64,000 bases of DNA from Thiotrichales bacterium (GTDB taxonomy: Bacteria > Pseudomonadota > Gammaproteobacteria > Beggiatoales > Beggiatoaceae), in the NCBI GenBank assembly GCA_016744475.1, contig JADGEH010000009.1, positions 1 through 64,000 of the forward strand, read 5' to 3'. Positions 20,969 to 61,141 of the stretch are shown piece by piece. Made by a program: the position numbers and the translations under genes. The notes under the pieces were generated by a model. The model did no database searches. It was not told where the DNA came from and saw only the letters and a list, made by a program, of their open reading frames with translations. Position 1 is the first letter of the stretch. Each line of letters starts with the position of its first letter.

Positions 20969-21042
20969 GAAACGTCTTTAATTCATAAAAGCACTTAAAA
21001 AAGACACATTATATTCAATCCCACCCAACAAACATGAGTTTG

Positions 21043-21087: not shown

Positions 21088-22731
21088 ATGCGAATACACT
21101 TATTTTTAATCATATTCATGACATTAAGCATTGGAGAATTACCCGCACGAGAACGCATGGCGCTGGTGATTGGTAATGCCGATTACCACTTCTCGCCGCT
21201 CGTTACTGCCACCAATGACGCACGGGATGTCGCGGCGGCACTGCGACAAAGTGGTTTTCGTGTCACCCTAAAGCTCGATGTTGACCAACAAAGCATGGAA
21301 AGCGCGATTAATCAATTTGCGCAATCGCTGCACGCCAATAGCGAAGCCTTGTTTTATTATGCAGGACATGGCGCACAAGCAAAACACGGCGAGCGCGACA
21401 ATTATTTGATTCCCGTCGGTTCAATTCCCAACATCAGCAGCGCGGCGGATTTGCGTTACAAAACCGTGTCTGCCAGTTGGGTGTTGAGCAAAATGAGCGA
21501 ATCTGCCAGCCCTTTGAAAATCATGATTCTCGATGCCTGTCGAGACGCGCCGTTTCGTGGTTTTAATCGCAGTCTACGCGGCGGGCTGGCGCGAATGCCC
21601 ACCGCCGACGGCACTTTAATCGCCTACGCCACCGCGCCCAACCGCAAAACCCGCGATCATTTTGAAGTCAATGACCGCAACAGCCCTTACACCAAACACT
21701 TGCTGAAATTCATGCAACACCCCGGTTTAACGCTGGAACAAGTGCTGAAAAATACCCGCCGTGAGGTGAAGGACATTACTGATGGTGAACAAAAACCTTG
21801 GTATGAGTCTTCCTTGGATGGCGATTTTTATTTCTCTGGGAGTGCGGCTGGGAATACCACTGGGAATACTGCTGGGAGTGTCGAACCCCAGTTCGACACA
21901 AGCGCCAGCGGCGCTTCAGGTGCAGAGCTTATCCAGCCCCCCACCGCCAAACTCACCATACGCTCGGATCAATACAACGACCAAGTATGGCTTAATGGCA
22001 AAGTCTACGGCGCTACCCCTGTGACTTTCGATTTACCTTTGGGGCGCTACCAACTCAAAGTAACAAAAGCAGGCTTTCAGGCGTATGAAAAGTGGCTTAA
22101 CGTACAAGCTGATATGCAAATGAAGGCAGCGTTGGAAAGAAAAAAAAAAAAAAGAAGCCAACCCACAACTGTGCCAAGCACGAGCAGCCCTTCCAAGCAA
22201 GGCACACGCATCAGCCGCTACATTGCTTATGATGATGGTACGGCTTTGGATACGGTGACGGGCTTACTATGGATGCGCTGTTTAGTGGGGCAAACTTGGA
22301 TAGGCAGCACTTGCACGGGCAAGGCGAAAACATTTGAGTGGGAAGCAGCAAGAACCCAAACGGCGAATTTTGCAGGCCATAGCGACTGGCGCATTCCCAG
22401 CATTGAAGAACTGCGTAGCTTAGTGTATTGCAGTCATGGCAAGCCTGCCTATTTTAATAATGGCAAACCAGGGAGAGAAGAGTATATCGCGCAAGGTCAC
22501 CCTGATAATTTTGACTGGGGTTGTCAAGGACAGCCTAATAAAGATCATGAGCGCCCCACGCTGTTACAAAGCGTATTTCCCACGCCAAAATGGCACTGGC
22601 TTGTCTGGTCAGGCTCGCCTTCGGCCACCTATTCAGACTATGCGTGGTACGTGGGTTTCAGCAGTGGTAACGGCAGCAACTACGGTCGTTACGGCAGCGG
22701 GCACATTCGCTTGGTGCGCGGCGGACAGTGA
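21088..22731 (+). CDS. Exported caspase-like protein with PEGA and DUF1566 domains
   Basis: 547 residues from ATG 21088 (preceded by GGAAAGGA); an upstream in-frame ATG at 21034 lacks a ribosome site and would spoil the signal peptide (MRIHLFLIIFMTLSIGELPA). Peptidase C14 domain, about 22-240: MALVIGNADYHFSPL, catalytic His in ALFYYAGHGAQ, catalytic Cys in IMILDACRDAPFRG. PEGA domain about 290-350 (AKLTIRSDQYNDQVWLNGK). Then a Lys run encoded by 14 consecutive A (22140-22153). A DUF1566/Lcl-type C-terminal domain about 370-545 has DWRIPSIEELRSLVY and SGHIRLVRGG. Prokaryotic caspase homologues cleave after basic residues and may act in signalling or cell death; substrate unknown. Standing alone between repeats. 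Confidence 0.88.
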   Translation: MRIHLFLIIFMTLSIGELPARERMALVIGNADYHFSPLVTATNDARDVAAALRQSGFRVTLKLDVDQQSMESAINQFAQSLHANSEALFYYAGHGAQAKHGERDNYLIPVGSIPNISSAADLRYKTVSASWVLSKMSESASPLKIMILDACRDAPFRGFNRSLRGGLARMPTADGTLIAYATAPNRKTRDHFEVNDRNSPYTKHLLKFMQHPGLTLEQVLKNTRREVKDITDGEQKPWYESSLDGDFYFSGSAAGNTTGNTAGSVEPQFDTSASGASGAELIQPPTAKLTIRSDQYNDQVWLNGKVYGATPVTFDLPLGRYQLKVTKAGFQAYEKWLNVQADMQMKAALERKKKKRSQPTTVPSTSSPSKQGTRISRYIAYDDGTALDTVTGLLWMRCLVGQTWIGSTCTGKAKTFEWEAARTQTANFAGHSDWRIPSIEELRSLVYCSHGKPAYFNNGKPGREEYIAQGHPDNFDWGCQGQPNKDHERPTLLQSVFPTPKWHWLVWSGSPSATYSDYAWYVGFSSGNGSNYGRYGSGHIRLVRGGQ

Positions 22732-58300: not shown

Positions 58301-61141
58301 ATGAACATTGTTGGAGCTAGATGGTGGAAGTTTGATTTTCACACACATACACCTGCTTCTTTAGATTATGGTAGAGGCGATAGTCATTTAAGAAATACCA
58401 AAAGTCCTAGAGATTGGTTGCTAGATTATATTTCCCAGGGTATTGAGTGCGTTGCCATAACTGATCATAACACTGGTAACTGGGTTGATAGACTTAAAGA
58501 CATCGCACAGGTTTTAAGAAGTGAGGGTTATTCGATACATGTTTTTCCAGGAGTAGAAATAACCGCAAACTCAAATATCCATATCTTAGGAATATTTGAC
58601 CCCACAAAAACATCAGCTGATATCAATGCAGTTGTTGGTGCTTCAAAATTTCGCGGTCAAAAAGGTAATAGTAATGCTGTCGCAGAAGAAAGTGCTGAAA
58701 ATGTAACCAAAGAAATTTTAAAGTCGGGTGGGATAGCTATTCCAGCACACATTGATATGAAAGCAGGTCTTTGCCAACAGTCGTCATCTCATACGATAAA
58801 ACAGGTTTGCGAGCACGCTAGTGCTGTTGAGGTTATTTTTCCCAATCAAGAGAAAAAAGAAACCCCATTATCAAGGTACAATAACTTAAGCTTTGATTTA
58901 CCCTCAGTAATTGGTTCTGACTCTCACCATCCAAATAAAGTTGGGCGATCATATAGCCAAAATATATCAGTTATATGCGAGGGATAACGCTGCTTGGAGC
59001 GACATTACCTATAACGTTATACAACTCATATAAAATGGCTATATACTTGGATCAAAATGTCAACCCCTTCCATTGAAGGTTTAAAGTTAGCTTTAGTTGA
59101 TGGTGCATCATCTCTTATTCGATCCGACAAAGAATATTCCAACCCGAATAGAGCTTCAAATATATTGTTACACTCAATAAAAATTGAGAATTCTAAATAT
59201 GCAGGTAGAGGAACACCTTTTGAAGTCGAATTTAACCCTTGGCTAAACTCTATCATTGGTGGGCGCGGAAGTGGTAAATCTTCAATTTTAGAGTTTATCC
59301 GCATAGGGATGGATCGAAGTAGGGATTTACTTAATTTAAGTGAAACTAACGAAATTCGGCGATCCTTTGAAAGTTTTATAAGATTATCCACCTCAAGAGA
59401 TTCAGAGGGTGTCATGCTAGATGACACCAAAATAACCTGTATGTATGCACGAGATAAGGTTTATTACTCACTTCAATGGATTAAGAATAACAACTCCGTT
59501 TCAATCATGCGTCATGATGGTGAAAATCGGATAGTTGAAAATGGTGATGCATATTCCAGGTTTCCCATTAAAATATTCAGTCAAAAACAAATATTTAACT
59601 TAGCTAAAAACCCGAATACTCTCTTGAGATTGATTGATGAGTCATCTACTGTCAGCTTCCAGCAGTCAAAAATGGATTGGCAGGAAAAGTGTACCCACTT
59701 CCAAACATTGTGTAGCCAAAAAAGAGAGCTTGAATCGAAGTTGTCAAACAATAATACTCTACTAGGACAGCTAGCCGATATAAAGCAAAAAATAATAACT
59801 TTAGAAAACTCTGGCCACAAAGAAGTATTGAGTGATTATCAAGATTTCCAAGTAAAAAAAACGGCTATCTATCAATATGAGAAAGATATTGAAAATTTAA
59901 ACAATAAAGTTAGTGAAATATTTAATTCAGCAAATCTGCCAGCCATAGATACAAGCAGTTTTGATACAAAATCGAGCAGCGAAATTGCGGTCGTACAAAA
60001 GTTAACGGGATTGTCCCAGAAGGTCGTATTATTCAAAGAAACTATCGACAATGAAATGAGAGTTATTGGCAATGAGTTATCTGAACTCAGGAAGTGGTAC
60101 ATTGAGAGTGAGTTCAATCATTGCCATACTACCGTAATTGAAAAATATAAAAAACTAACCGAAGAACTAACCAATCAAGGTATAAATAGTCCGTCTGATT
60201 ATGCAAAATTAATAAATGATAGAGAAACCGTTAGTAAATCATTAAAAAGCCTAAAGAGTATTGAAACTCAAGTTGGTGAGCTTGATTTACAGATAAATAG
60301 TGCATATCAAGAAATAATTAATGCACGGAAGCAGTTAACCGAAAATAGACTTAATTTTTTGAATCAATACCTTGGCAATAATGATGTCATAAAAATTGAG
60401 CTTTTCCCCCTATCAGATGAAGATGAAATCGAGGCATCCTTTAGAAAAATCATTGGAAAGTTTAGTGGTACATATTCTGCGGAATTATTTGATTTAGAGA
60501 GAAAATCAGGATTTCTCTTTAGCTTGAATTAAAAACTAACATCGCTTAGAAGCCCTGTTGATACTAATGCTCTCGATCCTTGGTTTTTATTAGTTCATAA
60601 ATTTAAAGAGGAATTATTTAATTTCAATTCAGGTAAAGTGTTGAGCAATAAGCTTGGAAAGCGATTTATTGACTTTATGGGGCAGCTACCACCACAAACT
60701 TTTGATGAAATTAAATTATGGTTTCCAGATGATAAGCTAACAATTAAGTTCAATGATGGAAATAGGTTTAAGGATGTTTCACAGGGTTCCGCAGGGCAAA
60801 AAGCATCAGCAGTCTTATCTTTCCTATTATCATATGGAACGGAGCCACTTATTTTAGATCAGCCAGAAGATGATCTTGATAATGGATTAATAACTAGTTT
60901 GATCGTATCGAAATTGCAGACTAATAAAGCCAATCGGCAGATAATTGTTGTAACGCACAACCCAAACATCGTTGTAAATGGTGATTCAGAGTATGTTGTT
61001 GCTTTAGAAAGTAAAGGGCAAATAAGTGACGTGGCTTCAGGAGCGCTCCAGGAGATAAATGTTAGAAAGAAGGTGTGCGAAATAATGGAAGGCGGCGAAC
61101 GCGCCCTCCAACAAAGATATAGAAGAATGTTTAATGTTTAA
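58301..61141 (+). pseudogene. Broken PHP-domain/SMC-like ATPase (TrlF-like)
   Basis: One gene in three pieces. Piece 1 (58301-58987): PHP phosphoesterase domain, WWKFDFHTHTPASLDYG, AITDHNTGN, FPGVEITANSNIHILG, IPAHID, GSDSHHPNKVGRS. Piece 2 (59057-60532): ATPase head with NSIIGGRGSGKSSILEFIR (Walker A) and a coiled coil. Piece 3 (60638-61141): SQGSAGQKASAVLSFLL (signature), LILDQPEDDLDNGLI (Walker B), VVTHNPNIV. A 90-bp insertion after GRSY (58955-59044) brings two stops; skipping it gives GRSY-TWIKMSTPSIEG. An in-frame TAA at 60530-60532 splits pieces 2 and 3. AT-rich. PHP-ATPase proteins of this type are often in defence islands. Confidence 0.8.
58955..59044. mobile_element. 90-bp inverted-repeat insertion in the PHP-ATPase gene
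   Basis: Bounded by atat on each side (58951-58954 and 59041-59044). The ends agccaaaatatatcagttat and the complement of the right end (agccattttatatgagttgt) match imperfectly over about 25 bp. A small non-autonomous element or a MITE. It is not of family A, B, C, D or E. Confidence 0.7.

Follow-up and report, generated by a model that had tools for sequence, protein, structure and literature searches.

The gene at positions 21088–22731 (+ strand) of the window, as we call the 64,000-nucleotide stretch of DNA analysed here, encodes a caspase-like fusion protein and carries 14 consecutive A residues (A14) at the joint between its PEGA and Lcl_C (DUF1566) domains. We give a probability of roughly 55% to the reading that slippage on this tract is leaky and that the linker around it tolerates the run; the tract would be recent and private to this gene, and the truncated form of the protein a by-product and not one that is regulated and conserved. 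According to this reading, A14 would be a DNA-level expansion in the PEGA/Lcl_C linker, on which slippage would be mainly by RNA polymerase, also by ribosomes and only rarely by DNA polymerase. The in-frame gene would then give mainly the full-length protein, together with a minority of a caspase-PEGA protein of about 380–390 aa devoid of Lcl_C, the C-terminal lectin-like domain that probably recognises a ligand.

Domain architecture of the encoded protein

The caspase-PEGA-DUF1566 fusion described in an earlier note on this DNA is borne out by Pfam domain matches. Specifically, the ORF extends from the ATG at 21088, preceded by an SD-like AAAGGA (read from the sequence), to the TGA at 22729–22731, with a further in-frame ATG at 21034. 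The resulting CDS of 547 aa comprises a putative signal peptide, a caspase domain, PEGA, the A14-coded linker and Lcl_C. The N-terminal stretch MRIHLFLIIFMTLSIGELPA (21088–21147, + strand) is a putative signal peptide by inspection of the sequence only, and an N-terminal helix (residues 2–13) appears in the AF2 model.

The Peptidase_C14 caspase domain covers aa 23–248 (21154–21831, + strand; Pfam E 6.9e-37), with His94 in YYAGHG (21367–21369) and Cys151 in LDACRD (21538–21540). The profile match and the presence of this His/Cys dyad point to a caspase-like peptidase, and the paralogs of the gene keep the GH and DACR motifs. In the AF2 model the pLDDT of the domain is mostly above 80, and its best PDB match, both by sequence and by fold, is the MALT1 paracaspase (TMt 0.79 to 3v4o). 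Judging from these features and from the putative signal peptide, the gene would encode an exported caspase-like peptidase.

PEGA occupies aa 288–350 (21949–22137, + strand; Pfam E 1.2e-13) with a pLDDT of about 80, and the model suggests that it forms a folded unit separate from the caspase domain. Lcl_C, a domain of a C-type-lectin-like family (family fold from PMC11162425), spans aa 384–544 (22237–22719, + strand; Pfam E 1e-23), its score of 84.3 bits being above the gathering score of 34.9. It showed no match in the PDB by sequence, and in the AF2 model, which is poor in this part, its pLDDT (38–73) is too low to judge a C-type-lectin-like fold.

The A14 tract lies in the linker between PEGA and Lcl_C

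The tract consists of exactly 14 A at 22140–22153 (+ strand), flanked by G at 22139 and by G at 22154. It is in frame, the codons AGA-AAA-AAA-AAA-AAA-AGA encoding R351, K352–355 and R356. Since Pfam sets the boundary of PEGA at aa 350, the tract begins at the first residue past this domain, and Lcl_C starts from aa 384; both the length of the run and its location between PEGA and DUF1566 are therefore as previously claimed. A14 falls within a low-confidence segment (aa 350–371, 22135–22200, + strand; AF2 pLDDT <50), so that in the model it is part of a probably disordered joint between the two domains.

Both Arg codons beside the tract are AGA, which makes up 5% of the Arg codons here, and AAG interrupts five of the six other Lys runs of at least three residues, though it accounts for only 19% of Lys codons. 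The rare AGA flanks and the four unbroken AAA codons suggest that A residues were inserted at the DNA level, that is, that the tract arose by expansion. A selected poly-Lys linker was rejected on account of this codon choice and of the paralog linkers, which are not Lys-rich. The idea that the tract joined two genes and so gave origin to the fusion was also discarded, because the paralogs show the same fusion without it.

The tract length was read from a single assembly, and long homopolymers are a frequent assembly error. In the event of such an error, the true length would differ from 14 by a multiple of three in either direction, or the consensus would derive from a mixed population. We regard an error of this kind as highly improbable, because the frame is kept, which two thirds of random length errors would not do, and the assembly contains no other A/T run above 10.

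Predicted products of slippage on A14

Frame reading on the + strand showed that a +1 or −2 shift on the tract leads to a TGA at 22230–22232, closing a product of 379–382 aa, and a −1 or +2 shift to a TGA at 22256–22258, closing a product of 388–391 aa. With a stop in both wrong frames near the beginning of Lcl_C, an indel of any length not divisible by three would remove this domain and keep caspase and PEGA, which agrees with the slipped product, a caspase-PEGA protein without the last domain, that the earlier note had predicted. The shifted tails extend about 24–35 residues past the Lys run and are short and unremarkable.

Genes of the tssM/dnaX type, which undergo transcriptional slippage, have A or T runs of at least 9 inside the coding sequence and shifted frames that predict a product of distinct length, and both features are found here. 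In tssM3 and tssM1, poly-A leads to 15–25% of frameshifted product and to two protein sizes (PMC4256274); in addition, ribosomes are reported to slide on AAA runs (PMC4363877). Given the published 15–25% slippage on poly-A, a second, shorter form, and hence a mixture of full-length and truncated products, is likely to arise from the gene, even if the host RNA polymerase may slip less than the polymerases measured elsewhere. A programmed ribosomal frameshift that depends on a structural stimulator, such as the stem-loop of the E. coli dnaX type, was rejected, since no RNA structure was detected downstream of the tract (z-score −0.60).

Long A/T runs are rare in the genome

A14 is the sole run above 8 in the window. 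Throughout the genome (5.34 Mb, 99.99% complete) there are 63 A/T runs with 9 bases and three with 10. Lengths of 11–13 do not occur, and A14 is the only run above 10 and hence the longest. Of the three runs of 10, one lies 5' to a start codon, one is intergenic and one falls in the final codons of a 339-aa ORF, which leaves A14 as the only A/T run of at least 10 within the body of a gene. Across 25 genomes from the same family, A/T runs of at least 13 are few, and those inspected (most, but not all, of the loci) are located in short frames, ahead of start codons or close to the end of an ORF or contig.

An order-1 model predicts 0.017 runs of at least 14 per 64 kb, that is, about 1–1.4 per genome when scaled, an expectation compatible with a neutral chance tract without appreciable product heterogeneity. 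By the same scaled model, however, about 90–110 A/T runs of at least 10 are expected per genome, so that such runs are depleted approximately 25-fold. In a 322-kb sample, runs of 4 to 8 were at or above the order-1 expectation and runs of at least 9 below it (length-9 A/T runs: 3 observed vs 11 expected). Such avoidance of A/T runs was read by Baranov et al. as selection against slippage (PMC1088944). Given this depletion, base composition is a poor model for the chance occurrence of A14; moreover, a complete lack of slippage would be unexpected from the biochemistry of poly-A, and we consider a chance tract of this sort very improbable. The survival of a 14-base tract in a run-avoiding genome, with an intact Lcl_C downstream, could indicate some reason for its retention.

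Avoidance is weaker for G/C runs than for A/T runs, and G/C runs of 10 are found inside genes. The other 14-base homopolymer found, a G14 run (C175:5899-5912; L241:1500), maps to a short ORF or its vicinity and does not seem to be part of a long CDS. A gene for a YHYH-type protein at C195:1447 (L255:1447) appears to be broken in two, with the change of frame falling precisely on a C/G run of 9 bases, as one-base slippage or an error in sequencing would produce.

The gene might also be a contingency (phase-variable) locus, in which replication slippage would change the tract length and cell lines would switch reversibly between a full-length and a sensor-less caspase. We find this doubtful. No A/T run in the genome is longer than A14, which sits in the CDS of a multi-domain protein taken to be exported (putative signal peptide, by inspection), the gene at C195:1447 looks frameshifted at its own run, and the A8–A9 tracts of Vibrio cholerae wbeL and manA behave in this manner (PMC3441752); on the other hand, mutS is present and open, and the genome is without a family of similar A tracts. 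A mutator genome was rejected, MutS being open over 882 aa.

The tract is absent from all relatives compared

Among the sequences compared, the caspase-PEGA-Lcl_C triple architecture was found only in three paralogs of this genome. Paralogs C63 and C213 combine these domains by way of unrelated linkers with no long run. The comparison of tract length in relatives that the earlier note had proposed went against conservation in the wider set as well: among the 142 other ORFs similar to caspase, PEGA or Lcl_C (143 with this gene), the longest run is 9. The long tract is absent from eight other caspase-Lcl_C fusions, and the caspase-Lcl_C fusions in genomes of the family and in Candidatus Electrothrix have runs of at most 7. 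A profile search recovered mostly relatives that have the caspase alone; it also gave two caspase-Lcl_C fusions, one of which comes from Candidatus Electrothrix. A named-genome search with the single protein as query gave no match. In the one same-genus genome compared no clear ortholog was found, and the gene beside adk is a different one.

Judging from the sequences of the 142 other homologous ORFs and of both same-architecture paralogs, A14 lacks the conservation in homologs that would be a sign of use. With the tract missing in all the relatives compared, an isolated slippery spot is more probable than an evolved switch. This bears on the alternative of a programmed dual-product gene, in which transcriptional slippage on A14 would set the ratio between sensor-bearing and sensor-less protein, as in Citrobacter rodentium tssM1. 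The exact position of the tract at the domain joint, the stop in both shifted frames, its uniqueness among A/T runs of at least 10 inside gene bodies over 5.34 Mb and the published case of tssM3, in which the topology is the same, are all in line with such a gene, but the tract is conserved in no paralog or relative, the shifted tails are nondescript and no RNA structure follows (z −0.6). We judge this alternative unlikely. The earlier interpretation that two forms are made from one gene thus holds in part: the geometry, the predicted product and the poly-A precedent (15–25%) favour it, whereas the relatives speak against a conserved mechanism. The preferred reading is again that of a leaky site in a tolerant linker.

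Lcl_C domains and other loci of the genome

The genome contains 18 Lcl_C matches, several of them in proteins joined to caspases. The VRLVRGGQ ending of these domains and the hypervariability of their last 40 residues led us to suspect a diversity-generating retroelement (DGR). No template repeat differing only at A was found in 322 kb including the reverse transcriptase loci, and BLAST against the genome returned neither a near-identical copy nor a template. A DGR target was rejected, given that neither search gave an A-specific template and that the two reverse transcriptase ORFs that were classed are of UG4 and retron XIII type. The retron type XIII-like enzyme at C248 (L049:14571-15977; PADLOC RT_XIII, E 4e-187) lies about 6 kb from an Lcl_C gene; the UG4-type enzyme maps to C178 (L048:5038-6063; PADLOC E 2e-102), and a partial similar ORF is present at C130.

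Large proteins at C121, C59 and C101 (L050, L052, L053) contain Lcl_C once or twice along with other repeats, and one of the three has, by inspection, a peptidase-like HGH...DTCYSG region. Their Lcl_C ends are hypervariable between paralogs, and the DGR template searched for was not found.

Elsewhere in the window, a MITE-like element of about 94 bp (58951–59044) with 26-nt terminal inverted repeats interrupts a PHP-domain/ATPase ORF (58301–61141), to which it adds in-frame stops; this ORF has a further in-frame stop at 60530–60532. Around 13 near-full copies of the element, with 86–100% identity, occur in the genome.

Comparison with known systems

In Thiomargarita, a giant sulfur bacterium, 59 metacaspases are reported (PMC4853749). 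Caspases of bacteria that are joined to PEGA or to the lectin-like FGE domain were described in a survey of the OCTIN superfamily (PMC5915273), a theme that matches the gene described here, although its C-terminal domain is Lcl_C instead of FGE. The association of caspase or PEGA with a lectin-like domain is therefore already known in bacteria, and the gene encodes a known kind of protein. The same C-terminal domain is shared by the Legionella adhesin Lcl, where it is C-type-lectin-like, trimeric and glycan-binding, and where it is joined to collagen repeats, not to a peptidase; the ligand is not transferable by sequence (PMC11162425). By analogy with Legionella, a ligand-sensing role of Lcl_C beside the caspase would be a reasonable assumption.

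If the tract works, the recognition domain of a caspase-like protein would be added or omitted by homopolymer slippage, and we found no such protein in the literature searched. Under control by slippage, part of the molecules or cells would have a peptidase uncoupled from ligand recognition. That polymerase slippage or phase variation at the poly-A linker actually sets the ratio of sensor-tethered to sensor-free exported caspase appears to us improbable. Even if not used, the tract would offer a clean natural case of a slippage-prone run surviving at a tolerant domain joint in a run-removing genome.

With regard to slippage, poly-A in the coding sequence of V. cholerae O1 wbeL (A8) and manA (A9) is such that, as here, a one-base change truncates the protein; these genes code for O-antigen synthesis enzymes and their DNA-level variants were seen in isolates, whereas the caspase gene comes from one assembly (PMC3441752). 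The transcriptional slippage of Thermus dnaX also takes place on an A run in the CDS and gives full-length and truncated proteins, which, unlike the forms predicted for the caspase, are established subunits (PMC1088944). Finally, C. rodentium tssM1 (A11) and Yersinia pseudotuberculosis tssM3 (poly-A) share with the caspase gene the position of the tract, in the CDS before a C-terminal domain (PMC4256274). TssM is a membrane protein of the T6SS, not a caspase; the slippage and both products, as well as the need for both in tssM1, were measured (PMC4256274), whereas the short and long forms of the gene described here are predicted from its frames. In tssM3 the unshifted frame gives the long form, as it does in the caspase gene (PMC4256274).
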